Assembly (NCBI GenBank): GCA_002238925.1
Contig: MPNH01000016.1
Coordinates: forward strand, 1-64,000
Source of the DNA: Spirochaetaceae bacterium bin103
Lineage (GTDB): Bacteria > Spirochaetota > Spirochaetia > SZUA-6 > Bin103
Length of the DNA stretch: 64,000 nucleotides
Direction of reading: 5' to 3'
The notes beneath the pieces are model-generated. The model had not been told where the DNA came from and ran no database searches. It saw only the letters and a program-made list of their open reading frames with translations. This document shows, piece after piece, positions 48,340 through 63,595 of this stretch. Numbering within the stretch: the stretch's first letter is position 1; every line of letters starts with the position of its first letter. Made by a program: the position numbers and the translations under genes.

Positions 48340-49530
48340 ATGGCGGAGGCTGATCGCGAGCACGGCGCCGGCGTCGAAACGCGCGAACTGGTGGTGCCGC
48401 GGGTATCGGAGGCGGAGCGTGCCGCCGCGCTCGACGATCGCGACGACCGCGAGTTCTACGCGTCGCAGTGGCAACTCATGCGGCGCCGCTTCTTCCGCCA
48501 CAAGGTGGCGGTGGGGGCGACCGTCGTACTCGGGATGCTCTATCTCGCGGCGCTGTTCTCGCCGTTCCTGAGTCCGCACGACCCGGTGCTGCGCAGCCTG
48601 GCGTACAAGGAGGCGCCGCCGATGGTGGTGCGCTGGTTCGCGGAGGGGCGCCTGCGGGGGCCGTTCGTATACCCGCTGACGAGTGAGCTGGATCGGGAAA
48701 CCTACGAGAACGTCTACCAGGAGGATCGCGCGCAGCGCTACCCGGTGAAGCTGTTCGTGCGCGGCTTCGAGTACAAGCTGTTGGGGCTGTTTGCGTCCGA
48801 TCTGCACCTGTTCGGCACCGGCGTCGAGGGCGTGCCGGTGCACCTGTTCGGCACCGATGCGCTGGGGCGCGACGTGTTCTCGCGCACCCTGTACGGCGCC
48901 CAGATCTCGCTGTCGGTGGGCCTGGTCGGGGTGGCGATCAGCTTCTTCCTGGGCATCCTGATCGGCGGCGTTGCCGGCTTCTTCGGCGGCACCGTGGACG
49001 AGGTGGTCCAGCGCCTGATCGAGATCATCATCGGCATTCCCAGCCTGCCGCTGTGGATGGGGCTAAGCGCGGCGTTGCCCACCGGCTGGCCGGTGTTGAA
49101 GATGTACTTCGCCATCACCGTGATCGTGTCGCTGATCGGCTGGACCAGCCTGGCGCGCGTGGTGCGCGGCAAGTTCCTGTCCCTGCGCGAGGAGGACTTC
49201 GTGGTGGCCGCCAAGCTGGCCGGGCGGCGCGATCTGCCCACCATCTTCCTGCACATGGTGCCTTCCTTCCTGAGCCACATCATCGCCTCGCTGACGCTCG
49301 CGATCCCGTCCATGATCCTGGCCGAGACCGCGCTCAGCTTCCTGGGCCTGGGCATGCAACCGCCGGCGATGAGCTGGGGCGTGTTGCTCAAGGCGGCCCA
49401 GAACGTGCACTCCATCGCGCTTGCCCCGTGGCTGATGATCCCCGGCCTGTTCGTGATCATCACCGTGCTGGCCTTCAACTTCGTCGGCGACGGCCTCCGC
49501 GACGCCGCCGACCCCTACGCATCCCATTGA
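48340..49530 (+). CDS. ABC transporter permease, OppC/YejE type with large first loop, system 1
   Basis: 396 residues. After a charged N-terminus and a first membrane segment (VAVGATVVLGMLYLAALFSPFLSPHDP), a periplasmic insertion of about 130 residues (EGRLRGPFVYPLTSELDR onward) precedes LFGTDALGRDVFSRTLYGAQISLSVGL, the start of the permease domain. This long first loop is a feature of YejE/microcin-C-type and related permeases. The EAA loop is EEDFVVAAKLAGRRDLPTIFLHMVPSF. The C-terminus GLRDAADPYASH is nearly the same as that of system 2's OppC. No nucleotide-binding proteins follow. Confidence 0.92.
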   Translation: MAEADREHGAGVETRELVVPRVSEAERAAALDDRDDREFYASQWQLMRRRFFRHKVAVGATVVLGMLYLAALFSPFLSPHDPVLRSLAYKEAPPMVVRWFAEGRLRGPFVYPLTSELDRETYENVYQEDRAQRYPVKLFVRGFEYKLLGLFASDLHLFGTGVEGVPVHLFGTDALGRDVFSRTLYGAQISLSVGLVGVAISFFLGILIGGVAGFFGGTVDEVVQRLIEIIIGIPSLPLWMGLSAALPTGWPVLKMYFAITVIVSLIGWTSLARVVRGKFLSLREEDFVVAAKLAGRRDLPTIFLHMVPSFLSHIIASLTLAIPSMILAETALSFLGLGMQPPAMSWGVLLKAAQNVHSIALAPWLMIPGLFVIITVLAFNFVGDGLRDAADPYASH

Positions 49531-49555
49531 TGCGTGACACATCTCATTGATGCGT
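49521..49555. repeat. Duplicated stop-codon region of the system 1 OppC gene
   Basis: ATCCCATTGATGCGT (49521-49535) and ATCTCATTGATGCGT (49541-49555) are direct repeats with a period of 20. The first copy contains the real stop (CAT TGA). The OppC gene of system 2 ends with the related ATCTCATTAATGC at 54458-54470, so the motif seems to be a family of 3' ends rather than a chance match. Confidence 0.5.
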
Positions 49556-49627
49556 CCCGCCTCCCACTGACCACATCGCGGCCCGGAGATGGGTCTCAGT
49601 GGCAGGTCCGGCACCGGGGATTACCGT

Positions 49628-49957
49628 TCAGCGCGCGAGGCGGGCGCTAATCAGGCGATTCAGGCTTACGCCCTCTTCCGCCGCCTTGATTGCAAGTTCC
49701 CGGTGAGTCTCCGGTGGCACCCGCACCACGAAGCGTCCGCTGTAGGTACGTTCTGCAAACGGTTCCGGCGGCGGCTCGTTGTTGGAACGCATGTCGGCCA
49801 CGACCTGTCGGACTAGCTCCTGCATCCCAGCCAGAGCCTCCGCCGGCGTCGGGGACAGCCAACTGAGCGATGGGAACTCGGCACAGAGAGCCACGTGTTC
49901 GGCATCGTCGGCAGACCATGTGATGCGATACGTGTAGCGGTCGCACTTGCTGCTCAC
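49628..49957 (-). CDS. HicB-like antitoxin, no HicA partner seen
   Basis: 109 residues from a GTG at 49957 with a GGGAGG ribosome-binding site 10 bases upstream. The N-terminus (YRITWSADDAEHVALCAEFPSLSWLSPTPAEALAGMQELV split into its usual strands) is the partial RNase H-like fold of HicB antitoxins. The C-terminus (YSGRFVVRVPPETHRELAIKAAEEGVSLNRLISARL) is an Arc/MetJ-type ribbon-helix-helix DNA-binding domain. Such proteins normally pair with a ~60-residue HicA RNase. No HicA-like frame flanks it, so this is an orphan, perhaps still a regulator or a decoy. It sits between two related ABC operons, on the opposite strand. Confidence 0.85.
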   Translation of the reverse strand: MSSKCDRYTYRITWSADDAEHVALCAEFPSLSWLSPTPAEALAGMQELVRQVVADMRSNNEPPPEPFAERTYSGRFVVRVPPETHRELAIKAAEEGVSLNRLISARLAR

Positions 49958-49988
49958 CTGTGTTCCTCCCGTCCTTCGCTGGATCCCG

Positions 49989-49998
49989 TACTATAGTA
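49989..49998. promoter_or_regulatory. Palindrome TACTATAGTA, -10 and operator candidate for hicB
   Basis: This 10-base perfect palindrome contains a TATAGT -10 box in both directions and lies 32 bases upstream of the hicB GTG. On the minus strand two copies of GATACTA lie 12 bases apart just here. The ribbon-helix-helix domain of HicB binds such short repeats, so autoregulation is likely. Confidence 0.45.
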
Positions 49999-50183
49999 TC
50001 AATAGTAGTATCGACCAGGGGGTCTCGCAAGCTGTGTGCAACGAGCATGGCCGTTTCGCCGTTTCGCCGTTTCGGCTCAGGGTTGAGGGGTGGCGGAGGA
50101 ACGGTTAGACTGCGGTCGGCAGCAAGGGGGGTGCGGTGTGTGGAATACGGGCCGCCGGTCCGCTGCCGAGGAGAATACATTCG

Positions 50184-52244
50184 ATGAGACGATTTCGTAT
50201 CGTTACCGGGTTGCTGGTGGCGGTTTTGGGCCTTGCCACGACGGTGACGGCGTTCGCGGGGGGAGAGGACGAGGGCGAAGCGTCCTCCGCGGCGGCAGAG
50301 CCGGCGATGGAGATGGCCAGCGACGCGATTACCGGCTTCGACACCTACAACCTGGACAGCGGCAGGATCACCATCACCTCGTTCGGTGAAGCGCCCATGC
50401 TGGCCGCGATGGTGGCCGAAGGCAGCCTGCCGCCGGTCGAGGAGCGGCTGCCCGACAACCCGCAGGTAATGGAACCGTGGGAGGAGGTCGGCAGCTACGG
50501 CGGCACGCTCAGGACCACCAGTCTGGATCCCACCTGGGACCCGATCATCCGCCACGTGGCCAACGCCGACCTGGTGGAGATGCTGGCAAGTCCCACCGCC
50601 CACCATGCCAACTTGGTGGGCGTGGAAGTGCGCCCCGGGGTGTTCGAGGACTGGTCGATCAGCGACGACGGCACCTCCTGGACGTTCACGCTGCGGCGCG
50701 GCCTGAAGTGGTCGGACGGGGAACGGGTCACCACCGAGGATGTCCGCTTCTTCTTCGAGGACATCATGGAGAACGAGGATCTCTATCCCAACTACCCGGT
50801 GTGGCTGGTGCGCGGGGGTGAGTCCCCCGAGTTCGTTGCGGTCGACGAGCACACCTTCCGCCTCGACTTCGCGGCGCCCTACGGCCTGCTGGAGGTGATT
50901 CTCCATACCCACGGCAGCGGTGGCGTGGGACGGACCATGAAGCCGGCCCACTACCTGAAGCAATTCCATCGCGACTACAACGACATGGACAAGATCCTTC
51001 CGGTCATGAAGGAAAAGGGCTTCGGCGACGACGAGTGGCCGCGCTTCATGCTGGAAACCGGGGCGGGCCTGATGAGCTGGGACGGCACCTACATGATGAG
51101 CGTGATGGAGCCCCTGGAGTTCCCGGTAGTGAACCCGTGGCAGGTGCAGGAGGTTGTCGGCCCCGGCGAATTCCTGTTCGTGCGCAACCCCTACTACTTC
51201 AAGATCGACACCGCCGGCAATCAGCTCCCCTACATCGACTATATCCGCAAGTCCACGGCCGAGGATCCGGAGGTGCTGTCGCTGAAGATTCTGACCGGTG
51301 AGCTGGACGTGGAGGGCGGTTACTTCGTCAAGCTGAGCGACTATCCGCTGTACGTCGAAAACCAGGACAAGGGCAACTTCGACATCCTGCTGACCAAGGA
51401 CTGGCTCGATCACCCGCTGATCTTCTTCTTCAACAACGCGCCGTCCGACCCGGTGCTCAGAGACCTGGTGCAGGACCCGCGTCTCGGCCAGGCGATGTCG
51501 CTGGCGCTCGACCGCCAGGACTTCATCGAGTCGCTGTTCCTGGGCTTTGGCCGTCCCGCGCAGGTGGCGCCGGTTCGCGGCAACCCGATGTTCAGCCAGG
51601 ACCTGGAAGATTCCTACGCGGCCTACGATCCCGACCAAGCCAACGCCTTGCTCGATGCGATGGGCCTGGAGTGGGATGCCAACAACGAATTCCGCCTGCG
51701 TCCCGACGGCGAGCGGTTTACCATCCCGCTGACCTACTACGAGGTGTTCCCGTCGGTCACGCCGGGTTCCGAGCTGGCTTCGCAGTACTGGAAGGCGATC
51801 GGCATCGACGTGCCGACCAAGGTGATGGACGGTGGCGCCTGGTGGACGGCGTTCCAGGCCAACGAGCATGTGCTCACTACCTGGGGTCTGGGCAGTGCCA
51901 GTGTCGTGCCGTCCTGGTTCTTCCAGGGCTTCAGCACCACTACGCCCACCTGGTGGCGCTGGTACCAGACCGGCGGCGCGGAGGGCGTGGAGCCGACCGA
52001 AGCGGGCAAGCGGGTGTACGAGTTGCGCGACATCATCCAGTCCACCCCGTCCGCGGAGGAGCGCCTGGCCGCGAGTCGCGAGGTGTTCGAGATTCAGGCC
52101 GAGCACCTGTGGGTGATCGGCGTGGCGGTGGACGTTCCTTCGCCCCTGGTGCACTCGCGGCGGCTCGGCAACATCGGCATCGCCAAGGACTTCTACAACA
52201 TCACCGTGCTCGACGGCGGCGAACAGTGGTTCTTCAAGAACTGA
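50184..52244 (+). CDS. Family 5 extracellular solute-binding protein, system 2
   Basis: 686 residues from the ATG at 50184, preceded by GAGGAGAA. The signal peptide (IVTGLLVAVLGLATTVTAFA) is followed by GGEDEGE. It shares the N-terminal mature block EAPMLAAMVAEGSLPPVEERLPD with system 1, and has the family blocks LRRGLKWSDGERVTTEDVRF, DPRLGQAMSLALDRQDFIE and YNDMDKILPVM. It is a paralogue of the system 1 binding protein, not a near-copy. It should bind a related but different peptide or oligosaccharide. Two permease genes follow on the same strand. Confidence 0.93.
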   Translation: MRRFRIVTGLLVAVLGLATTVTAFAGGEDEGEASSAAAEPAMEMASDAITGFDTYNLDSGRITITSFGEAPMLAAMVAEGSLPPVEERLPDNPQVMEPWEEVGSYGGTLRTTSLDPTWDPIIRHVANADLVEMLASPTAHHANLVGVEVRPGVFEDWSISDDGTSWTFTLRRGLKWSDGERVTTEDVRFFFEDIMENEDLYPNYPVWLVRGGESPEFVAVDEHTFRLDFAAPYGLLEVILHTHGSGGVGRTMKPAHYLKQFHRDYNDMDKILPVMKEKGFGDDEWPRFMLETGAGLMSWDGTYMMSVMEPLEFPVVNPWQVQEVVGPGEFLFVRNPYYFKIDTAGNQLPYIDYIRKSTAEDPEVLSLKILTGELDVEGGYFVKLSDYPLYVENQDKGNFDILLTKDWLDHPLIFFFNNAPSDPVLRDLVQDPRLGQAMSLALDRQDFIESLFLGFGRPAQVAPVRGNPMFSQDLEDSYAAYDPDQANALLDAMGLEWDANNEFRLRPDGERFTIPLTYYEVFPSVTPGSELASQYWKAIGIDVPTKVMDGGAWWTAFQANEHVLTTWGLGSASVVPSWFFQGFSTTTPTWWRWYQTGGAEGVEPTEAGKRVYELRDIIQSTPSAEERLAASREVFEIQAEHLWVIGVAVDVPSPLVHSRRLGNIGIAKDFYNITVLDGGEQWFFKN

Positions 52245-52287
52245 TGGTTCTTTTGGAACTGACCCGCACCAACTTGACGTGATTGCT

Positions 52288-52319
52288 GCGCCGGCCGCCG
52301 TATCAGCGGCGGCCGGCGC
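52288..52319 (+). promoter_or_regulatory. Perfect 13-bp stem-loop between binding-protein and permease genes, system 2
   Basis: GCGCCGGCCGCCG pairs perfectly with CGGCGGCCGGCGC around the 6-base loop TATCAG. It begins 44 bases after the binding-protein stop and ends 11 before the permease start, without a T-run. Location and form match the hairpin of system 1, though the sequence differs. Confidence 0.6.
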
Positions 52320-52330
52320 CTGCTGATGCC

Positions 52331-53323
52331 GTGCTGTATTACCTCCTGCGCCGTTCGCTCTACATGCTGCTTCTGCTGGTGGTACTGTCAATGGCGGGAT
52401 TCGCCATCATCCAGCTCCCACCCGGCGACTACCTGAACAGCTATATCCAGGCGCTGGCGATGCGCGGCGCCGCCCCCGACGAAGCGGAGCTGGCCGCGTT
52501 GAAACGGCAGTACGGCCTCGACCTGCCGCTGCACCGCCAATACCTGAAGTGGGCCGGACGGGCGCTGGCCGGTGATTTCGGACGCTCCATGGACTGGCGC
52601 AAGCCGGTCTCGGAGCTGATCGCCGACCGCATGCTGCTGACGGTAATCATGAACGCCGCGGCGATGGTATTCATCTACGTGGTGGCGGTTCCGATCGGGA
52701 TCTACGCCGCCACCCACCAGTACTCGGTCGGCGACCACGCGCTGACGGTGGTCAGCCTGACCGGGCTGGCAACGCCGCAGTTCCTGCTGGCGCTGGTGCT
52801 GATGGTATTCATGGTGCGCCAGTTCGGCGCCAGCGTGGGCGGCCTGTTCTCGCCCGAGTACGTCGACGCCGCCTGGAGCGTGGGCCGGGTGATCGACCTT
52901 ATGGCGCACCTGCCGGTGCCGGTGATCATCATTGGTCTGTCCGGGACCGCGGCGCTGATCCGGGTGATGCGCAGCGGCGTGCTCGACGAGTTGAAGAAGC
53001 AGTACGTGGTGACCGCCCGCGCCAAGGGCGCCGCCGAACGCGCCCTGCTGTTCAAGTACCCGGTGCGGGTGGCGATCAACCCGATCATCAGCACCGTCGG
53101 CTGGATGCTGCCGGCCACCATCTCCGGCGGCACCATCACGGCGGTGGTGCTCAGCCTGCCGACGGTGGGCCCGATGCTGCTGCGCGCCCTGCGCAACCAG
53201 GACATGTTCCTCGGCGGCACCATCGTGATGCTGCTCGGCTTCCTGACCGTGATCGGAACCTTCGTCTCCGACATGCTGCTGATGTGGATCGACCCGCGCA
53301 TCCGCTACGAGCGGAGCACCTGA
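52331..53323 (+). CDS. ABC transporter permease, OppB/DppB type, system 2
   Basis: 330 residues from the GTG at 52331 (VLYYLLRRSLYMLLLLVVL), the start that matches its system 1 paralogue; a start at 52283 would run through the hairpin. It has about six membrane segments, the GFAIIQLPPGDYLNSY motif and an EAA loop in YVVTARAKGAAERALLFKYPVRVAINP. It is highly similar to the system 1 OppB over the whole length. It is 4 bases from the following OppC gene. Confidence 0.91.
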   Translation: MLYYLLRRSLYMLLLLVVLSMAGFAIIQLPPGDYLNSYIQALAMRGAAPDEAELAALKRQYGLDLPLHRQYLKWAGRALAGDFGRSMDWRKPVSELIADRMLLTVIMNAAAMVFIYVVAVPIGIYAATHQYSVGDHALTVVSLTGLATPQFLLALVLMVFMVRQFGASVGGLFSPEYVDAAWSVGRVIDLMAHLPVPVIIIGLSGTAALIRVMRSGVLDELKKQYVVTARAKGAAERALLFKYPVRVAINPIISTVGWMLPATISGGTITAVVLSLPTVGPMLLRALRNQDMFLGGTIVMLLGFLTVIGTFVSDMLLMWIDPRIRYERST

Positions 53324-53327
53324 ACCG

Positions 53328-54467
53328 GTGGCGGAGCCGGCTGTCTCGAACGCTGCCGCCACCGCCGAGCAGGCGGAGGAGCGCCTCTATCTCGCGTCGC
53401 AATGGCAGCTCATGTGGCGCCGCCTGGGCCGCCACCGGGTGGCGCTCGCCGGCGGCGCGGTGCTGCTGCTGTTCTACCTCACCATGTGCCTGGGCGCGGA
53501 GTTCTTCGCCACCTACGCCAGGGACACCCGCTTCAAGGAGTTCTCGTTCGCTCCGCCTTCGCGTGTCCGCGTGATCGACGCCGACGGGCGCCTGCGGCTG
53601 CCGTTCGTGTACGGCCTGGAGCCGGGGCGCGACCCGGTGTCGTTCCGCAAGGTGTACACGGAGGACGTGACCGTGCGCTACCCGCTGCGGCTGTTCACGC
53701 GCGGCGAGCGGTATGAGCTGTGGGGGCTGATTCCGGCTGACCGCCACCTGATCGGCGTGGCCGAGCCCGGCCTGCTGCTGCTGTTCGGCAGCGACGAGCT
53801 GGGCCGCGACCTGTTTTCGCGCACCCTGTACGGCGGCCGCATCTCGCTGTCTATCGGCCTGGTCGGGGTGGCGGTGAGCTTCGTGCTCGGCTGTATCCTG
53901 GGCGGAGTGTCCGGGTTCTACGGCGGGGCGATCGACAATACCATTCAGCGCGTTATCGAGTTCCTGCTGTCGATACCCACCATTCCGCTGTGGATGGCGC
54001 TGGCGGCGGCGGTGCCGGTCGACTGGCCGCCGTTGCGCGTGTACTTCGGCATTACCATCATCCTGTCGATCATTGGCTGGACGGCACTGGCGCGGGTGGT
54101 GCGCGGCAAGCTGATCAGCACCCGCGAGGAAGACTTCGTGGTGGCAGCTCAGATCGCCGGCTCCACCGAGCGCAAGATCATCGTACGCCACCTGCTGCCG
54201 TCGTTTCTGAGCTACCTGATCGTCGACCTGACCCTGTCGATCCCGCGCATGATCCTGGGCGAGACCGCGCTCAGCTTCCTGGGCCTGGGGCTGCGCCCGC
54301 CGGTGGTGAGTTGGGGCGTGCTGCTGAACCAGGCGCAGAACGTGAAGGCGGTGGCCCTGCACCCGTGGATGATGATTCCCGCGATCTTCGTGATCGTGTC
54401 GGTGCTGGCCTTCAACCTGCTCGGTGACGGCCTGCGCGACGCCGCCGACCCCTACGCATCTCATTAA
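53328..54467 (+). CDS. ABC transporter permease, OppC/YejE type with large first loop, system 2
   Basis: 379 residues from a GTG at 53328. The layout repeats that of system 1: one membrane segment (VALAGGAVLLLFYLTMCLGAEFF), a long periplasmic loop with FVYGLEPGRDPVSFRKVYTEDVTVRYP, then LFGSDELGRDLFSRTLYGGRISLSIGL and the EAA loop EEDFVVAAQIAGSTERKIIVRHLLPSF. It ends in GLRDAADPYASH. The two loops are related in sequence, so the systems arose by duplication of a whole operon. No ATPase subunits follow. Confidence 0.92.
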   Translation: MAEPAVSNAAATAEQAEERLYLASQWQLMWRRLGRHRVALAGGAVLLLFYLTMCLGAEFFATYARDTRFKEFSFAPPSRVRVIDADGRLRLPFVYGLEPGRDPVSFRKVYTEDVTVRYPLRLFTRGERYELWGLIPADRHLIGVAEPGLLLLFGSDELGRDLFSRTLYGGRISLSIGLVGVAVSFVLGCILGGVSGFYGGAIDNTIQRVIEFLLSIPTIPLWMALAAAVPVDWPPLRVYFGITIILSIIGWTALARVVRGKLISTREEDFVVAAQIAGSTERKIIVRHLLPSFLSYLIVDLTLSIPRMILGETALSFLGLGLRPPVVSWGVLLNQAQNVKAVALHPWMMIPAIFVIVSVLAFNLLGDGLRDAADPYASH

Positions 54468-54675: not shown

Positions 54676-54866
54676 TCGGCAAGGTCTCCAATACCAAGCG
54701 TGGCGCCACAACGCCAGCGGCGGAACTTACTTGACCCCACGCTTGACCGGTTCGCCCTTGACTAGCATCCTGTACCGGACATGCTGTCGCACACTCCTCG
54801 CACGTCGGGATCATCGACGGGTGGGGACGGGAGCCGTCTGTTGTCGACTTGGCACGGTTGAGGCTG

Positions 54867-56879
54867 ATGCTGCGGATCGCGGAAGAGATTCTCGTTCTCA
54901 TTATCGATAGCGAAAAGGGCGGCATCCGTGCCTCCCTCTCGGACCATTCCCGTGACGTTGTGATTGCCGGCGCGGTATTGATGGACCTGGCGCTGGAACA
55001 ACGCATCGACACGGATCTTCAGCAACTGTTTCCCGTCGATCCCACGCCGCTCGGAGACGACCTGCTCGATTCCACCCTGGCGGACATCTGCGCGGAAACG
55101 AATTACCGCGACGCCGCCTACGGGGTCACTCGTACCGCGGCGAGAAGTGACCAAATCCGCCAGCGGGCGCTCGACCGACTTGTCGCGCACGGCATACTCG
55201 ACAGCGAAGAAAACGGCATGGTGTTTCTTTCACGGTTGATTTCACGCGTCCGGCGCTATCCTCCCGCCAGCATGAGAGCCACGGAGGATGTCGAGTTCCG
55301 GATCATGCGAGTGATCTTCAGTCAGGACATCCCCGAACCGCGCGACGCCGTGATCATCGGGCTCGCGGCATCGTGCGGCGTGTTCGAGAGCCTGCTCTCC
55401 CCACAGGAGCTCGCGGAGGTCCAGGGACGGATCGATGAGATCGCTCAGCTCGATCTTATCGGAAGAGTGGTCACGGAGGCTCTCCGCGGGATTGATCCTC
55501 CCACACCGCGCGGCATGCCGGCGCGTCTGCCCGAAGAGATACCGCAGGCGCCCGGATGGCCGCTCCTCGGCAATGCATTCGAGATGGCGGGCGATCTGCG
55601 CGCATTCCTCACACGGCAATACCTGCAGCACGGTCCGGTGTTCCGCGTGCGGGCGTTCAATCGCCACTACATCGCACTCGTCGGTCCGGAAGCGAATAAC
55701 TTTGTCACCAACTCGGGACAGAACCATCTTCGCTCGTTCGAAACCTGGCGCGATTTCAACACCGTCAACGGCGGTCTTCATGTCCTGATGAGCATGGACG
55801 GCCCCGAGCACCTGCGCATGCGCAAGGTGCAGGCGGATGGATACTCGCCCAAGCTCATCGAGAGCCGGCTCGACGATGTCGTCGACATCACCCGCCGCGG
55901 GATCGCCGGATGGCCCGAGGGCCAGGCCATGAGCGTCCTCAATGCGTTGCAGCGCATCGTCGCCGAGCAACTCGGCGTGCTGCTTACCGGCGTTCCGCCA
56001 CGAGACTACCTCGACGACGTGGCTGCCTTTCTCGACGTGCTGCTGAAGACGCAGGTGACCCGGCAGTGGCCGGCCCTGTTGGTTCACCTGCCGCGATTTC
56101 AGCGCGCGCGCAAGCGTGCCAACGAACTGTACAAAGAACTGCTCACCGTCCACGAGCGCGAGGCGCACGCAGGCGGCGATGCCGATTACATCGACACCCT
56201 CATCAACCTGCACCGAACCGACCCGCAGTTCTTCCCGGAGACGGACATGATGTTGGCGTTCCTGGGTCCCTATTTTGCCGGACTCGATACCTCGGCTTCC
56301 GTGTGTTCGTTCATGCTCCACGCAATCCTGACTCACCCGGAGTTGCACGCGCAGATGACCGCCGAAGTGGATTCTTGGTTCGACAACGGTGCGCTCACGG
56401 TGCAGTCCTTGCGCAAGCTCGATGTGACCCATAGCATCGCGCTCGAGACGCTGCGCATGTATCCCATCATCCCTGCCATACCACGGGTCGTCACGAACAC
56501 GTTCGAGTTCGGCGGCTATGAGATCCCGGCCGGGTCCCACGTACTGATCGGCAGCACCGTGGCACATCACCTGCCCGAGTGCTTCCCCGATCCGGGGCGC
56601 TTCGACATCGAGCGCTACGGCCGCGAGCGCGCCGAGCATCGACGGGCCGGAGCCTTTGCACCATTAGGCGTCGGACGACATCGTTGTCTGGGTTTCGCGT
56701 TTGCCGAGGTGCAGATTGCGATCACGATGGCGACTATCGTGCGCGAGACCGAATTGGTGCTCGAGCGACCGGACCGCCCGCTCAAGATCAAGCATGCGCC
56801 GCTCCCTCACCCGGCCGGCTCGTTCCGGGTTCGGGTGGTCCGCCGCCGTGGCGGAGAGGCATCGGAGCGGTCCCGGTGA
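54867..56879 (+). CDS. Fusion of a GPP34 (GOLPH3-like) domain and a cytochrome P450
   Basis: 670 residues from the ATG at 54867 (a TTG at 54849 is possible). Residues 1 to ~210 fit the GPP34/GOLPH3 domain: IAEEILVLIIDSEKGGIRAS, AGAVLMDLALEQRIDTD, VDPTPLGDDLLDSTL, ALDRLVAHGILDSEENG and a Leu-rich end. In eukaryotes GPP34 binds phosphatidylinositol-4-phosphate; bacterial roles are unknown. Residues ~215-670 are a P450: I-helix AGLDTSAS (A471, D474, T475), ExxR at E527-R530 (ETLR), and heme loop LGVGRHRCLG with Cys607. The usual Phe seven residues before the Cys is Leu600. The heme site otherwise resembles CYP51-type enzymes. There is no membrane anchor, so GPP34 could tether the enzyme to a membrane or bring it a lipid. 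The next gene overlaps its stop. Confidence 0.85.
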   Translation: MLRIAEEILVLIIDSEKGGIRASLSDHSRDVVIAGAVLMDLALEQRIDTDLQQLFPVDPTPLGDDLLDSTLADICAETNYRDAAYGVTRTAARSDQIRQRALDRLVAHGILDSEENGMVFLSRLISRVRRYPPASMRATEDVEFRIMRVIFSQDIPEPRDAVIIGLAASCGVFESLLSPQELAEVQGRIDEIAQLDLIGRVVTEALRGIDPPTPRGMPARLPEEIPQAPGWPLLGNAFEMAGDLRAFLTRQYLQHGPVFRVRAFNRHYIALVGPEANNFVTNSGQNHLRSFETWRDFNTVNGGLHVLMSMDGPEHLRMRKVQADGYSPKLIESRLDDVVDITRRGIAGWPEGQAMSVLNALQRIVAEQLGVLLTGVPPRDYLDDVAAFLDVLLKTQVTRQWPALLVHLPRFQRARKRANELYKELLTVHEREAHAGGDADYIDTLINLHRTDPQFFPETDMMLAFLGPYFAGLDTSASVCSFMLHAILTHPELHAQMTAEVDSWFDNGALTVQSLRKLDVTHSIALETLRMYPIIPAIPRVVTNTFEFGGYEIPAGSHVLIGSTVAHHLPECFPDPGRFDIERYGRERAEHRRAGAFAPLGVGRHRCLGFAFAEVQIAITMATIVRETELVLERPDRPLKIKHAPLPHPAGSFRVRVVRRRGGEASERSR

Positions 56880-58093
56880 CCGGCCACTCGCTCACCTGCC
56901 GGGACGCGGACGGCATCACAGTGGACTGGATGCGGCGCGCACTTCGTGCGGGCGGCGTCTCCGACCCATCGGAAGTAAAGGAAGTCGTGGTCGAAAACCT
57001 GGGGGCGGCTACGAATGCGTTCGGTAGCCTCTTGCGTTGTCATCTGGTCGCGCAGGACGGCTCTCCCGCGGTGCCACGGAGCGTGATCGTGAAATTTCCC
57101 ACCGACAGCGCGCTGGCGATGAGGTTCGCCAAGTGGCTCGCGATTCACCAGCGGGAGTACGATTTCTATCGCCAAGTGGCGGCCCATGCGCCGATTCGAT
57201 CGCCAGCTTTCCTGTACGGCGAGTTCGACGAAGACAGCCACCGGTTTGTCCTGGTCCTCGAAGATCTCCGCCCGATGGAGGCGACGCCCCAGGCGGTTGG
57301 CGTCAACGCCGAACGCGCACGGATCGCCGTTCGGGAGCTTGCCAACCTGCATGGAATGTTCTGGGAAGCGGTCGACAGGCCCCCGGTAGCCGGCAGCTAC
57401 GACTGTCTCAGCCCGCGTTACGGACGGCGCATGCAGAGTGCCTACCTGCTGTGCCTTCCGCTGGTCCTGGAGCGCTTCAGCGACCACTTCTCGACCGGGA
57501 CGGGACGTTTGGTGGAGGCCTTCGGGACACGGATCGGCGCACACTTCGCAAACGTGGCGACCGGACCCGTTACTTTCATCCACGGGGACTACCGTGGGGA
57601 GAACCTGCTGTTCGACCCGGGTGACGCGGCCAAGCCCGCGGTCGTCGATTGGCAAGGCTGCGGCTTCGGCAGCGGCCTGTACGACGTCGCGTATTTCTTG
57701 GGAACCAGCGTTTCCGTCGACGATCGCCGGCGCATCGAGCGGCAGGTGGTGCAGGAATACCACGACATCGTGTGTCGCCACGGAGCAAAGAGCCTTTCGT
57801 TGGACGATTGCTGGCGCAGCTATCGCCAAAACATGCTCAGCTCGGTCGTTCCCTGCATACTGGGGTGCGGAGGGATGGAGATGGCCGATCCGCGCATGCT
57901 GGATCTGGCCAAGGTGGGCCTGCACCGGATACTGACCGCGGTCGAAGACCTGGACGCCGGGGAATTCCTGCCCACATCCATGGGGTCTCATTTCTCGAGG
58001 CTGTCGTTGTGTGGCTACCAGGCATACAAGCTCGTTCACCGTCTGCGGCGGAACAAGAACCATCCACCCGTGGCGCCCGGCGCACGGCAGTAG
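56876..58093 (+). CDS. CHK/APH-like phosphotransferase
   Basis: 405 residues from a GTG at 56876 that overlaps the P450 stop (GTGA). Kinase landmarks are SVIVKFP (K73), LEDLRPMEATP, the Brenner loop FIHGDYRGENLLF (H236, D238, N243) and the metal Asp in VVDWQGCGFGSGLYDVAYFLG (D258). The sequence pattern, with E-D-L and D-W-Q, is closer to ecdysteroid/choline-kinase-like (CHK) proteins than to classical aminoglycoside kinases. Such bacterial kinases often phosphorylate small hydroxylated molecules. Its translational coupling to the P450 suggests that it phosphorylates the P450 product or substrate, either for activation or for self-protection. Confidence 0.85.
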   Translation: MTGHSLTCRDADGITVDWMRRALRAGGVSDPSEVKEVVVENLGAATNAFGSLLRCHLVAQDGSPAVPRSVIVKFPTDSALAMRFAKWLAIHQREYDFYRQVAAHAPIRSPAFLYGEFDEDSHRFVLVLEDLRPMEATPQAVGVNAERARIAVRELANLHGMFWEAVDRPPVAGSYDCLSPRYGRRMQSAYLLCLPLVLERFSDHFSTGTGRLVEAFGTRIGAHFANVATGPVTFIHGDYRGENLLFDPGDAAKPAVVDWQGCGFGSGLYDVAYFLGTSVSVDDRRRIERQVVQEYHDIVCRHGAKSLSLDDCWRSYRQNMLSSVVPCILGCGGMEMADPRMLDLAKVGLHRILTAVEDLDAGEFLPTSMGSHFSRLSLCGYQAYKLVHRLRRNKNHPPVAPGARQ

Positions 58094-58103
58094 GACCGCG
58101 TGG

Positions 58104-59756
58104 ATGGGCGGTCAACCGGCCAACGCGGCGGCGACTGGAGCGTCTGCCGGCAGGCCGCTGGACGCAGGATTTGTGCCGCTTCCGAGGAAGCAGGTTGCCC
58201 TGGCGATGACCTGCGTGGTGCTGGCGACGTTCCTGGCCGCCCTCAGCCAGACGGTCGTCGCCACGGCGATGCCGCGCATCATCGCGGACATCGGCGGGTT
58301 CGACCGCTACGCTTGGGCGATCACCGCATACCTTGTCTGCGCCACCATCGCGTACCCGATCGTGGGCAGGCTGAGCGACTTGTATGGCCGGCGGCGATTC
58401 CTTCTGCCCGGCATGGCGATCTTCATCGTCGGCTCCGCCCTGGTGGGAGCGAGCGGTTCGATGGCGGAGCTGGTGCTGTTCCGCGCCATACAGGGAATCG
58501 GCGGCGGGATCATCATGACCTGCAGCTACGTGGCGATCGCGGATCTGTTTCCGCCCGAGGAACGAGGCAAGTACCATGGGCTCATAGGCGCGGTGTACGG
58601 CGTGGCCTCCGTCGCCGGACCGATCGCCGGAGGGGTCGTTGCCGAACGTCTGTCCTGGCACTGGATGTTCCTGCTCATCGCCCTGAGCGGCATTCCGGTG
58701 CTGGCCCTCAGCGCACGATTCTTTCCCAAGCTGCGCCCTCCGTCCGGAGGAAACAGAATGGACTATGCCGGGATGTTGGCGTTGATCCTTGCCTTGCTGC
58801 CGCTGCTTGTTGGACTGTCGGCGGTCGGTGTCCAGCAGGAGTGGACCACGCCGCGAATCGTCGGCTTGCTGGCGTTCGGACTGGCGATGACCGCAGTATT
58901 CATCGTGATCGAGTCTCGAGCCGAGCAACCGATCATGCCTCTGCAGGTGTTCTCAAGCCGCGTGATGTCCATCTCCGTGCTCATGACGTTGTTGTCCAGT
59001 TTCGCTTTGTATGGCGGTGTGATTTTCCTGCCATTGTTCTTTCAGATCTCGATGGGCATTTCGGCGGCCGGCAGCGGCAACCTGCTGGCGCCGATGTTGC
59101 TCGGCATAGTGTTCGGCGGCGTGCTGTCCGGCCAACTGCTGTCGAGGGCCGGCGGACACTACCGGTTGCAGGCACTGGTCGGCACCGGGTTCATGTCGGC
59201 GGGGATGTGCCTGGTCTCCACCTTGCATGCCGGCACGAGCGTCGTTCTGAGCGAGATCTATATCGTGGCGGCAGGATTCGGGTTTGGTGGAATCGTGGCG
59301 ACGCTCTCGGTCGCCGTGCAGAATGCCGTTCCACACCGGCTGGTAGGTGTCGCGACATCTGCGCTGCAGTTCTACCGGTCCCTCGGCGGTATGCTGGGCA
59401 TTGCGGTGCTGGGCGTCGTGCTGACCCGGCGCTTCTCGTCGCGGCTTGAGGCCGCGGTCAGCGGCGAATCAAGGGCAGCGCTGCCCGAGGGTCGCTTCGA
59501 ACTGTTGCGGCGTGATCCCGAGGCGCTGCTCGACTCTTCCATGGCAGAGTCGCTGCGGGCGGACCTGGCCGGGACGGGCCCGGATGGCTCGGCAACGGCG
59601 GACCTGTTGCTGGACGGAATGCGCGCAGCTCTGGCCGGAGCGGTGGACGATGTGTTCACGGCGCTGGCCGTGGCCGCGGTGTTGGCCTTCTGTGCCGCTC
59701 TGTTGTTCCGTGTGCCGCCGCAAGCGGCAAGCCCGGCGGAACCCGCCGAGGACTAG
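58104..59756 (+). CDS. MFS drug/metabolite exporter, DHA2 (EmrB/QacA) type
   Basis: 550 residues from the ATG at 58104, 10 bases after the kinase stop. About fourteen membrane segments are seen. The MFS motifs are FLAALSQTVVATAMPRI (motif D1), GRLSDLYGRRRFLLPG (motif A), FRAIQGIGGGIIMT (motif B) and IAGPIAGG-like text in AGPIAGGVVAERLSWHWMF (motif C of drug antiporters). The C-terminal ~100 residues before the last helix are a soluble insertion (ALPEGRFELLRRDPEALLD). DHA2 proteins export lipophilic compounds with protons. In this operon it could export the product of the P450/kinase pair or a toxic compound. Confidence 0.9.
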   Translation: MGGQPANAAATGASAGRPLDAGFVPLPRKQVALAMTCVVLATFLAALSQTVVATAMPRIIADIGGFDRYAWAITAYLVCATIAYPIVGRLSDLYGRRRFLLPGMAIFIVGSALVGASGSMAELVLFRAIQGIGGGIIMTCSYVAIADLFPPEERGKYHGLIGAVYGVASVAGPIAGGVVAERLSWHWMFLLIALSGIPVLALSARFFPKLRPPSGGNRMDYAGMLALILALLPLLVGLSAVGVQQEWTTPRIVGLLAFGLAMTAVFIVIESRAEQPIMPLQVFSSRVMSISVLMTLLSSFALYGGVIFLPLFFQISMGISAAGSGNLLAPMLLGIVFGGVLSGQLLSRAGGHYRLQALVGTGFMSAGMCLVSTLHAGTSVVLSEIYIVAAGFGFGGIVATLSVAVQNAVPHRLVGVATSALQFYRSLGGMLGIAVLGVVLTRRFSSRLEAAVSGESRAALPEGRFELLRRDPEALLDSSMAESLRADLAGTGPDGSATADLLLDGMRAALAGAVDDVFTALAVAAVLAFCAALLFRVPPQAASPAEPAED

Positions 59757-59820: not shown

Positions 59821-60828
59821 GTGGCGGAGCAGGGGTCAGGGGGCAGCACATTCAAGGGGTACGTAATCAGGAGGTTGGCGCTGTCGCTGGTGACCATCCT
59901 GGTGGCCAGCTTCCTGGTGTTCATGCTGCAGCGCCTCACGCCTGGGACGATTGTCGACGCGATGGTCGGCCAGTACATGGGGATGAACCCCGACGAGATC
60001 GACATTGTGGCGGCGCGCGCCGAGATCGAACAGGCGCTGGGGCTGGAGCGGCCGCTGTTCGAGCAGTACGCGAGTTGGCTAAGCGGCATCGTGCTGCGCG
60101 GCGACCTCGGCGCCTCGCTGTGGCGGCGCACGCCGGTGCTGGAGGAGATCGCCGCGCGCTGGCCGGTCACGGTTGAGTTGGGCCTGCTTGGGTTCATTTT
60201 CAGCCAGATCATTGCGCTGCCGATCGGCATCTACTCGGCGGTGCGCCAGGACACGCTCGGCGACTATGCGGGGCGCAGTTTCGCCATCTTCTGGGTGGCC
60301 GTGCCGGGCTTCTGGATAGCCACGATGGTGATTGTCTATCCGTCGATCTGGTGGGGCTACGCGCCGCCGTTCCGGTACGTCGGTTTTTTCGAGGATCCGG
60401 TCGAGAACCTGAAGATTCTGCTGATCCCGGCGCTGGTGCTCGGCATGGGGATGGCGGGCGGGACGATGCGCATCGCCCGCACCATGATGCTGGAAGTGCT
60501 GCGCCAGGACTACATCCGCACCTCCTGGGCGAAGGGGCTGCGCGAGCGGGTAATCCTGGTCCGGCACGCGCTGAAGAACGCGATGATCCCGGTGGTGACG
60601 TCGATCGGCCCGCAACTCCTGCTGATGGTGGGCGGATCGGTAATCGTGGAGCAGATCTTCAACCTGCCGGGCATGGGCCGCCTCACGCTGCAGGCGATTC
60701 AGGCGCGCGATTACACGGTGGTGAGCGGGGTGCTGTTGATCTTCTCGGTGGCGATCGTGCTGATCAACCTGCTGATCGACCTGAGTTACGGCTACCTGGA
60801 TCCCCGTATCCGGCACGAACGAAAGTGA
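59821..60828 (+). CDS. ABC transporter permease, OppB/DppB type, system 3
   Basis: 335 residues from a GTG at 59821. Typical DppB-like start YVIRRLALSLVTILVASFLVFMLQRLTPG, then GDLGASLWRRTPVLEEIAARWPVTVELGL, six membrane segments and the EAA loop YIRTSWAKGLRERVILVRHALKNAMIP. NLPGMGRLTLQAIQARDY precedes the last segment. It is closer to the standard Dpp/Opp family than to the permeases of systems 1 and 2. The gene order here is permease, permease, binding protein. Confidence 0.94.
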   Translation: MAEQGSGGSTFKGYVIRRLALSLVTILVASFLVFMLQRLTPGTIVDAMVGQYMGMNPDEIDIVAARAEIEQALGLERPLFEQYASWLSGIVLRGDLGASLWRRTPVLEEIAARWPVTVELGLLGFIFSQIIALPIGIYSAVRQDTLGDYAGRSFAIFWVAVPGFWIATMVIVYPSIWWGYAPPFRYVGFFEDPVENLKILLIPALVLGMGMAGGTMRIARTMMLEVLRQDYIRTSWAKGLRERVILVRHALKNAMIPVVTSIGPQLLLMVGGSVIVEQIFNLPGMGRLTLQAIQARDYTVVSGVLLIFSVAIVLINLLIDLSYGYLDPRIRHERK

Positions 60829-60865
60829 TGCAGTCCCGACTTCTGGTGCGGATTGGGGGCCACCG

Positions 60866-61780
60866 GTGACCGGGGCCAAGAGGCGTTCCAGGCTGACCGG
60901 TTTCCTGGTGCGCCTGATAAGGGAGAAGCCGCTGGGGGCGGTGGGGCTGCTCATCACCCTGCTGCTGCTGTTCGCCGGCATATTCGCCGAATTCCTGGCG
61001 CCGTATGGCATGAACGACATGCATGACGAGCGGCTGGCGCCGCCGTCGGCGCGGTTCCTGCTGGGTACCGACAACCTGGGCCGCGACCTGCTGAGCCGGG
61101 TGATCTTCGGGGCGCGGGTATCGATGGTGGTCGGCCTCGCGAGCAGTGCCGTAGCCACGGTGATCTCGGTCGGCATCGGCATGCTGAGCGGCTACATCGG
61201 GGGCAAGTTCGACCTCATCGTGCAGCGATTCGTGGACGCGGTAATGTCGCTGCCGCTGATCATCATCGTGGCGGTGATCATGTCGATGGCAGGGCAGGGC
61301 ATGCTGCCGCTGATCATCGTCATGGGGGTGGGCGGCGGCATCAGCGGCTCGCGCCACTCGCGCGGCTTCACCATCAGCGTGGTCGGCAACGCCTACGTGC
61401 AGGCGGCGGCCGCGATCGGCGCCCCGACCAGCCGCATCCTGCTGCACCACATCCTGCCCAACATCGCCCCGCTCATCATCGTCGGATTCTCGGTGCTGCT
61501 GCCGGGGATCATCCTCACCGAGGCGTCGCTGAGTTTCCTCGGCTACGGCATTCCGCCGCCGGCGCCAAGCTGGGGGGCGATGCTGAGCGGCGCCAACCGC
61601 AGCTACATGTTCCTGGCGCCCTGGATGGTATTGTGGCCCGGGCTCGCCCTGAGTGTGGTAGTGTATGGTACGCACATGTTCGGCGACGCGCTGCGCGACA
61701 TCCTTGATCCGCGCATGCGCGGCGGGGCGGGGCGCTACGGGGTCCGGCAGAAGCGGCGTGTGGCGCGAAGGGAGAAGTGA
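60866..61780 (+). CDS. ABC transporter permease, DppC/OppC type, system 3
   Basis: 304 residues from a GTG at 60866. The OppC N-terminal domain (FLVRLIREKPLGAVGLLITLLLLFAGIFAEFLAPYG) is followed by LLGTDNLGRDLLSRVIFGARVSMVVGL, the domain start. There is no large periplasmic loop, unlike in systems 1 and 2. The EAA loop is YVQAAAAIGAPTSRILLHHILPNIAP. It ends in ALRDILDPRMRG. No ATPase genes follow, again implying shared or distant energising subunits. Confidence 0.94.
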   Translation: MTGAKRRSRLTGFLVRLIREKPLGAVGLLITLLLLFAGIFAEFLAPYGMNDMHDERLAPPSARFLLGTDNLGRDLLSRVIFGARVSMVVGLASSAVATVISVGIGMLSGYIGGKFDLIVQRFVDAVMSLPLIIIVAVIMSMAGQGMLPLIIVMGVGGGISGSRHSRGFTISVVGNAYVQAAAAIGAPTSRILLHHILPNIAPLIIVGFSVLLPGIILTEASLSFLGYGIPPPAPSWGAMLSGANRSYMFLAPWMVLWPGLALSVVVYGTHMFGDALRDILDPRMRGGAGRYGVRQKRRVARREK

Positions 61781-61870
61781 CGACAGCAAATCGGTGACCG
61801 GCACCAGTGAAGACTGAACTGCGGTTCCGAGTAGAACAGACGCAACGCTACCAAACAGGAGGAGAAAGCG

Positions 61871-63595
61871 ATGCAGAACAAATGGTTGGCCCTGTTGACC
61901 GGGGCCCTGGTATTGATCGGCGTATCCGCATGGGGCTCGCCGGCAGGCGAGGAGGGCGCCGCCGCCGAAGACTCCATGTACGGCGGTACGGCGGCCCTGT
62001 ATTTCTGGGGTCAGGACGTGCCGAGCGCGGACACCAACCTCAATCAGTGGGTTACGCGCATGTACATCAGCCCGGTGATGCAGCGCCTGGTGGAGGCGGA
62101 CTTCGTACAGTACGGCCCGCGCGGCACCGGTGAGTTCACCAACTTCACCAGCGACAACATTTCGCCGGCCTACTCGCGCGGAGCGCTCGCGGAGAGCTGG
62201 GAAGTTACCGCCGACCGCATGGTATTCAACATACGCGACGGGATCATGTGGGCCGCCGACGGCAAGGAACACATCATGGAGTCGCGCCCGTATACCGCCG
62301 AGGACTGCGCGTACGCGCTGAACCGGGTCGCCGACCGCGGCAATGCCGGCTGGCGCACCGAGAACGGCGGCTTCATCGACTCGATCCACGCGGAAGGCAA
62401 CGCCTGCATCGTCGAGACCAGCTCGTTCAACCCGGGCGGCTTCGCCAACATCGCGCAACATTCAGGGTCCGTGCACTACCCGCGCGAGGTGGTGGAGGCC
62501 GATCCCGGCAACTGGGACAACCTGGTCGGCACCGGGCCGTTCCTGCTCAAGGAGGCGGTGGTAGGCTCGCACATCTCGTTTGCGCGCAACCCGCAGTACT
62601 GGCGCACCACGACCATCGACGGCACCGAGTATCAACTGCCGTTCATCGACGAGATGATCATGCCCAACCTGCCGGACGAGACCACCCAGATCGCGTCGTT
62701 GCGCACCGGGCAACTCGACATAATGGGTACCGTGAGCGTGAAGTACCGGGACACGCTGGCCGACACCTCGCCCGACCTGCAGAGCCAGGGCTGGGTGGAG
62801 ATCTGGCCGGTGGTGGTGGCGCTGAACCACAACAACGAATACCTGGCCAACCGGCAGGTGCGGCGGGCGCTGATGATGGCAGTCGACCAGGCGGCGATCA
62901 TCGATGCGGTGTGGGGGTATGGCGCGCTGTACAACTACCCGGTCGACTGGCGCGACGGGTCCAGCATTCTGGGTGATTTCAGCCAGCTTCCGGACGAGAT
63001 CACCGAGTTGTACACCTACAATCCGGACAAGGCGCGGCAGATGATCGTGGACGCCGGCTACCCGGACGGCTTCAAACTGGAAATTGCCTTCACGCCGGCG
63101 GCCACCGCGGGTACGCATGGCGACATCGCCACCATGATGTCCGGGTTCTTCGAGGACGTGGGGGTGGATCTGGAGTTGAAGTCGCACGAGCACACCGCGC
63201 TGTCCGCGCTGATGTCGTCGCGCACCGGCTATGACCTGTTCGCCACCAACTCGGCGTCCAACAATCCGCTCGGCATAATCGGGTCGCTGGCATCGACGGA
63301 CGAGTCCAACCCCTGGAACACACCCAACTACGCCAACCCCGAACTCGCCGCGCTCACCGACAAGGCGCGCATGACGGTAGATGCCGCCGAGCGTGATGCC
63401 GTCCTCAAGGAGATGGCGCTGATGGTGATGGGCGACGTGGCCTACATCCCGATCGGCGCCAGCGGTCGGTTCGTGTACTGGTGGCCGTGGGTCAAGAACT
63501 ACCACGGCGAGGCGATGAGCGGCGGCACCAGCATCGGCCCCTACATGGAGCACCTGTGGCTCGACCAGTCGCTGAAGTCGGAGATGGGATACTGA
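61871..63595 (+). CDS. Family 5 extracellular solute-binding protein, system 3
   Basis: 574 residues from the ATG at 61871, preceded by AGGAGGAGAAAG. A signal peptide (LALLTGALVLIGVSAW) ends before GSPAGEEGAAAED. It has the family blocks GALAESWEVTADRMVFNIRDGIMW (broken here), NLVGTGPFLLKE, FARNPQYWRTTTIDG and NRQVRRALMMAVDQAAII. It lacks the N-terminal EAPMLAA block of systems 1 and 2 and has standard DppA length. It would deliver peptides or a small glycoside to the two upstream permeases. Confidence 0.93.
   Translation: MQNKWLALLTGALVLIGVSAWGSPAGEEGAAAEDSMYGGTAALYFWGQDVPSADTNLNQWVTRMYISPVMQRLVEADFVQYGPRGTGEFTNFTSDNISPAYSRGALAESWEVTADRMVFNIRDGIMWAADGKEHIMESRPYTAEDCAYALNRVADRGNAGWRTENGGFIDSIHAEGNACIVETSSFNPGGFANIAQHSGSVHYPREVVEADPGNWDNLVGTGPFLLKEAVVGSHISFARNPQYWRTTTIDGTEYQLPFIDEMIMPNLPDETTQIASLRTGQLDIMGTVSVKYRDTLADTSPDLQSQGWVEIWPVVVALNHNNEYLANRQVRRALMMAVDQAAIIDAVWGYGALYNYPVDWRDGSSILGDFSQLPDEITELYTYNPDKARQMIVDAGYPDGFKLEIAFTPAATAGTHGDIATMMSGFFEDVGVDLELKSHEHTALSALMSSRTGYDLFATNSASNNPLGIIGSLASTDESNPWNTPNYANPELAALTDKARMTVDAAERDAVLKEMALMVMGDVAYIPIGASGRFVYWWPWVKNYHGEAMSGGTSIGPYMEHLWLDQSLKSEMGY

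Follow-up and report, generated by a model that had tools for sequence, protein, structure and literature searches.

A conserved bacterial fusion of a GPP34 (GOLPH3-like) domain with a cytochrome P450 and its sterol-gene neighbourhood in Chloroflexota

GPP34–P450, in which a GPP34 (GOLPH3-like) domain is joined in frame to a cytochrome P450, is a genuine architecture that has been conserved. Elsewhere the fusion occurs in about 30 genomes, where it mostly adjoins genes for sterol synthesis or transport, and this sterol link of the larger, Chloroflexota branch is unexpected and strong. The copy described here lies in the window, that is, the whole stretch of 64,000 nucleotides analysed (contig MPNH01000016.1 of Spirochaetaceae bacterium bin103), and is a divergent branch of GPP34–P450. 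The reading that we favour, with a probability of about 0.5, is that GPP34–P450 would act on steroid or triterpenoid lipids as a peripheral-membrane P450, for which GPP34 would serve as tether or docking domain. The architecture is undescribed as far as the literature searched shows: searches for GPP34 or GOLPH3 with P450 returned no such protein, in agreement with the first-pass annotation of this DNA, which knew of none.

Architecture of the fusion protein

The first-pass annotation described an in-frame GPP34–P450 fusion in this domain order, with intact I-helix, ExxR and heme-Cys motifs and a Pro-rich junction free of frame breaks, and this description is borne out in each part by the following features.

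54849..56879, + strand: GPP34–P450 fusion gene; start TTG at 54849 or ATG at 54867, stop TGA at 56877-56879
54876..55487, + strand: GPP34 (GOLPH3-like) domain, residues 4-207 (PF05719, 1.6e-31)
55488..55541, + strand: Pro-rich interdomain linker, about residues 208-225 (from sequence and relaxed dN/dS)
55542..56795, + strand: cytochrome P450 domain, residues 226-643 (PF00067, 5.1e-53)
56277..56291, + strand: I-helix AGLDT with the acid-alcohol pair, residues 471-475 (GQHTS of CYP51 absent)
56445..56456, + strand: ExxR motif (ETLR), residues 527-530 (from sequence)
56661..56693, + strand: heme-binding loop PLGVGRHRCLG with Cys607 (from sequence)

Translation of 54867-56879 on the + strand yields 670 residues without interruption by a stop codon, and the linker lies within this single open frame. 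The profile search proposed with the annotation places both domains above their Pfam cut-offs, PF05719 scoring 110 bits against a gathering cut-off of 29.1 and PF00067 lying far above its own. The P450 hallmarks are complete (the Cys607 loop, ETLR and the AGLDT pair), although the usual Phe of the heme loop is replaced by Leu in the window protein; it is Phe in the homologue L001. The solved structures nearest to the P450 domain are of the CYP51 and CYP120 types. No transmembrane-like segment is found in the fusion protein, whose most hydrophobic 19-residue stretch (mean hydropathy 1.79) begins at residue 607 and belongs to the heme region of the P450. Between 54400 and 60000, no sigma-70-like promoter site was found, and the repeats are short and chance-like.

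Selection on the fusion and its distribution

The closest homologue of the window fusion is L001, with 80% identity, which served as the reference for dN/dS (NG86). The ratio is about 0.23 for GPP34, 0.18 and 0.17 for the two parts of the P450 and 0.70 for the linker, so that two constrained domains are joined by a looser linker. When a profile built from four fusions was run over 294 relatives of G453 (the Chloroflexota MAG holding L001), full-length fusions with the same two-domain order were found in 31 of these genomes, several of which carry two copies. Together with the fusion of G002, a congener of the window genome (40% identity), this answers the genome search for the same domain order that had been called for. 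Purifying selection on both halves and recurrence in independent assemblies indicate that the fusion is real and not an artefact, and on the same two grounds a chimera in the DNA is ruled out. That the gene is an artefact or makes two separate proteins, either as an assembly chimera or by production of the P450 alone from an internal start, is extremely improbable: Met at 217 could serve as such a start, but codon 217 has no clear Shine-Dalgarno sequence upstream and is Arg in L001, both halves are under purifying selection, and more than 30 independently assembled genomes hold the same fusion.

The frame of L001 is broken once within the P450, at about 2040-2050, either by an assembly error or in reality. 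Its 4.8-kb contig belongs to a Chloroflexota bin and yet is 80% identical to the window, which suggests mis-binning or transfer. In G003, from the family of the window genome, GPP34 and a related P450 are both stand-alone proteins. Among 393 genomes scanned across the phylum of the window, GPP34 occurs only in the window's genome and is therefore rare in this phylum; that genome also encodes two stand-alone GPP34 paralogues (53% and 42% identity). No relative was found among viral contigs. The organism was placed from two of its proteins, as its assembly yielded no 16S: the RpoB frame, at about 1191 residues, is shorter than expected of the usual proteobacterial form, and ribosomal S3 has its best match in 8fmw, the Borrelia ribosome, so that the lineage is probably spirochaete-like.

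Two types of fused P450

In the P450 tree, all fused P450s and three stand-alone P450s group together, with CYP51 and other P450s outside (99% SH-aLRT). Within this clade, the window protein and L001 group with the stand-alone P450s, and the 38 sequences from Chloroflexota make up a clade of their own. Stand-alone P450s fall among fused ones in this tree, which carries long-branch warnings, and the fused GPP34 domains all lie on one side of a weakly supported branch (49/91); the fusion may have arisen a single time or repeatedly.

The acid-alcohol pair is kept (AGLDT, AALDT and kin) in the window protein, L001, G002 and the stand-alone relatives. In the Chloroflexota fusions (38/38; for example L033:9816-11891), the I-helix reads ASxYLGD or close to it instead of AGxDT, and the pair is displaced or lost; all 38 keep ExxR, and a pattern match finds the heme Cys loop in nearly all of them. 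I-helix changes of this kind are seen among P450s of non-standard chemistry, for example peroxygenases and isomerases. The two P450 types may therefore catalyse different steps, and the Chloroflexota fusions may not be ordinary monooxygenases.

The fused P450 was also considered as a CYP51, and this identification was rejected: the GxHT signature is absent (AGLDT in the window), GQHTS is found only in separate P450s of L047 and L107, and CYP51 has a gene of its own.

Among plasmid-borne P450s, the best relative of the fused one is the named, stand-alone P450 L031 on Planktothrix agardhii plasmid p2, in a terpenoid-looking cluster with several P450s, a squalene/phytoene synthase-type gene, a gene for a squalene-cyclase-repeat protein and Rieske genes. 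The window genome encodes a second P450 of an unrelated clade, L006 (G000:C16:21644-22999), with a TAA in the matched stretch; L018 in G002 is a close homologue without this flag.

Sterol genes around the Chloroflexota fusions

Neighbourhoods were counted over 41 fusion loci; some of these come from closely related genomes, so that the counts do not represent independent events. At 32 of the 41, a homologue of the MMPL transporter of G453 is present, usually 3-60 or about 1100 bases from the fusion. This neighbour matches MMPL, sterol-sensing and Patched models, and its best named kin are the HAE3, HpnN and BstA models, all below their cut-offs; the BstA protein from Methylococcus has been reported to be a sterol transporter of the RND type (PMC10942540). 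A sterol C24-methyltransferase (SMT) is encoded at 14/41 loci, an FAD amine-oxidase-like protein at 22/41, and 3bHSD/SdmB, ERG24, Rieske/SdmA and CYP51 each at a few. The amine-oxidase-like neighbour (for example L033:7142-8848, − strand) matches only the protoporphyrinogen oxidase and HpnE models, and these weakly.

Full sterol sets are found at two fusion loci. At G467:C3, the order is ERG24, CYP51 (GQHTS), SE-OSC, SMT (opposite strand), SdmB, GPP34–P450 and MMPL (opposite strand), with the fusion 54 bases past SdmB; SE-OSC matches TIGR03463 at 2.8e-224 and SdmB its model at 4.2e-90. G453:C58 has the same kinds of genes and SdmA in addition (5.6e-118), the SdmA and SdmB matches being strong, yet below the curated equivalog cut-offs. 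A de novo sterol gene set (SE, OSC, SMT or ERG24) is present in the Chloroflexota genomes G453 and G467, the former of which holds four SMTs. SMT and sdm genes are known from symbiont clusters (PMC10070321).

Squalene epoxidase and 2,3-oxidosqualene cyclase share one open frame of about 1160-1255 aa at L047:14754-18245 (− strand) and L107:2466-6230 (+ strand). Frames of similar length at the squalene epoxidase match in G455, G463, G458 and G689 suggest the same one-frame SE-OSC.

The operon in the window

Two genes follow the fusion in the window.

56876..58093, + strand: EcKL/APH-type small-molecule kinase (PF02958, 1.6e-16; PF01636, 3.3e-15)
58011..59756, + strand: MFS exporter (PF07690, 6.2e-52); the frame starts at 58011 and the true start is probably later

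The GTG start of the kinase overlaps the fusion stop by 4 bases. EcKL (ecdysteroid-kinase-like) is a fold name that also covers aminoglycoside-type kinases. A kinase of this type likewise follows the fusion gene in G002 (36% identity) and L001 (82%), and an MFS gene occupies the same position in G002 (46% identity), so that the order GPP34–P450, EcKL/APH kinase, MFS is common to the window and G002. In G002, a sulfotransferase gene lies upstream of the fusion, and divergent genes nearby resemble CysD and CysN at their sequence starts. On both sides of the operon in the window (48340-54467 and 59821-63595), there are several ABC permeases and binding proteins of the dipeptide/oligopeptide type.

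No matches to SMT, ERG4/24, squalene epoxidase or squalene/oxidosqualene cyclase (PF08498, PF01222, PF08491, PF13243) were found in G000, the window's genome, or G002, whose assemblies are 94-95% complete. No sterol genes adjoin the window's own fusion copy, and no redox partner gene was identified near the fusion.

The GPP34 domain and its PI4P residues

A single-sequence PDB search with the GPP34 part of the window protein gave no match; a profile of 11 such domains matches GOLPH3 (3kn1) at 1.6e-14 and Vps74 at 5.4e-12. The residues of GOLPH3 that bind PI4P are W81, R90, R171 and R174 (PMC13408441, PMC4414131). At these positions the window protein has S, A and D in place of W81, R90 and R171, and keeps R174. 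Among 40 aligned fusions, W81, R90 and R171 are present in none and R174 in two (window and L001), so that all four are missing in 38/40. The first-pass annotation had noted that eukaryotic GPP34 reads PI4P, and for the fusions this property is not supported. It is very unlikely that the fused domain recognises PI4P or another phosphoinositide in the manner of the eukaryotic members; the homology to the GOLPH3/Vps74 domain and the R174 of the window and L001 would favour it, but three of the residues are absent throughout, and R90L by itself largely abolishes the Golgi localization of human GOLPH3 (PMC13408441). At the putative membrane-inserting or dimerising beta-hairpin, the basic-aromatic stretch reads RRYP in the window and is degenerate in the Chloroflexota type.

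A model for the function of GPP34–P450

In the scheme that we infer for membrane tethering, substrate class, reaction and order of steps, a soluble P450 would be held by its N-terminal GPP34 at the site of hydrophobic substrates, either on a membrane or on a membrane partner. Such tethering would be a covalent version of the service that GOLPH3 gives in trans to Golgi enzymes, and tethering to a membrane or a protein is our best guess by analogy with that enzyme-holding role. That the P450 works on a lipid surface though it has no transmembrane anchor, as first proposed for this protein, is plausible and would fit the sterol context. The substrates would most likely be steroids or related triterpenoid lipids. 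The fused P450 of Chloroflexota, whose gene has an RND/MMPL lipid exporter and often SMT as neighbours, may tailor sterols or act late in their de novo synthesis, and is not the CYP51 of the pathway. In the window organism, without the genes looked for in sterol and hopanoid synthesis, steroid or terpenoid lipids from the host or its community may be imported and then oxidised by the canonical (AGLDT) P450. The hydroxyl so formed would be conjugated by the EcKL-type kinase, and in the congener also by a sulfotransferase, and the conjugate would leave through the MFS pump.

The points for the steroid reading are the fusion with its motifs, the homologues in 31/294 genomes and G002, MMPL at 32/41 loci and SMT at 14, the two full sterol loci, the terpenoid-type cluster of Planktothrix, the EcKL and MFS genes after the fusion in the window and G002, the sulfotransferase of G002 and the GOLPH3/Vps74 homology. 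The absence of sterol genes beside the window copy, the breadth of the EcKL fold and the lack of an identified redox partner gene in the vicinity count against it. Since the PI4P residues of GOLPH3 are mostly missing, membrane binding is proposed by analogy, and since the I-helix pair is displaced or lost in 38/38 Chloroflexota fusions, the function there possibly does not transfer to the canonical type of the window. More tentatively, GPP34–P450 may be an undescribed family of sterol-pathway enzymes whose GOLPH3-type domain brings the P450 either to the membrane or to an RND exporter of sterols. The Chloroflexota type, without the acid-alcohol pair, would then perform an unusual sterol step, and the canonical sister type of spirochaete-like symbionts would hydroxylate steroids for phosphorylation and export.

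A different role of GPP34, possible though somewhat doubtful, is that of a protein-docking or oligomerisation module instead of a lipid tether, which would dimerise the P450 or gather it with the kinase, the RND transporter or a redox partner, much as the beta-hairpin and client-tail groove of GOLPH3 do. The loss of the PI4P residues, the variable hairpin stretch, the conserved MMPL neighbour and the acidic groove of GOLPH3, which also binds enzyme tails (PMC13408441), speak for docking, but docking is compatible with membrane contact as well. The substrate, too, could be of another kind. The gene order of P450, APH/EcKL-type kinase and drug-type MFS, the lack of the sterol synthesis genes sought in the window genome and an I-helix that is canonical, unlike that of the sterol-cluster type, would also suit a xenobiotic or antibiotic defence cassette in which the P450 oxidises, the kinase phosphorylates and the MFS exports, with no steroid involved. 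This is unlikely, since the window P450 falls in the same clade as the sterol-cluster fusions (99% SH-aLRT), another relative sits in the terpenoid-type cluster of Planktothrix, and a sulfotransferase is added in G002.

For bacterial GPP34, a little-understood domain, the fusion is strong evidence of the partner enzyme, linking GPP34 with a lipid exporter and with the chemistry of sterol or triterpenoid lipids. With the fusion, one can also ask directly if GPP34 ancestrally held enzymes at membranes without phosphoinositides. Complete sterol pathways are indicated in Chloroflexota MAGs, at least one of which is probably sponge-derived, as judged from its RHO bin name and the literature; this is relevant to the debated question of whether bacteria are a source of the sterol biomarkers of sponges.

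Comparison with known systems

CYP51 sterol 14-demethylase is among the best solved-structure matches to the fused P450, but it has the GQHTS I-helix, and the same clusters encode their own CYP51 separately. Three stand-alone P450s belong to the same P450 clade as the fusion but are without GPP34: L002 from a Rhodospirillales MAG (47%), L036 from G003 (35%) and the P450 of the Planktothrix plasmid (35%). Conversely, SCO4440 of Streptomyces coelicolor is a stand-alone GPP34 protein of the same Pfam family without a P450, and its reported phenotype concerns peptidoglycan and wall-deficient cells (PMC12402492). GOLPH3 and Vps74 (3kn1, 2zih) share a homologous domain with the fusion over about 190 residues, and these eukaryotic members hold Golgi enzymes at membranes; the fusion differs in that it is bacterial, lacks the PI4P residues and has the enzyme attached. 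No GPP34–P450 was found in the searched parts of PMC10070321 and PMC10942540, but the bacterial sterol clusters with SMT, SdmA and SdmB in the former and the BstA-type transporters in the latter are of the same kinds as the genes that surround the Chloroflexota fusions.
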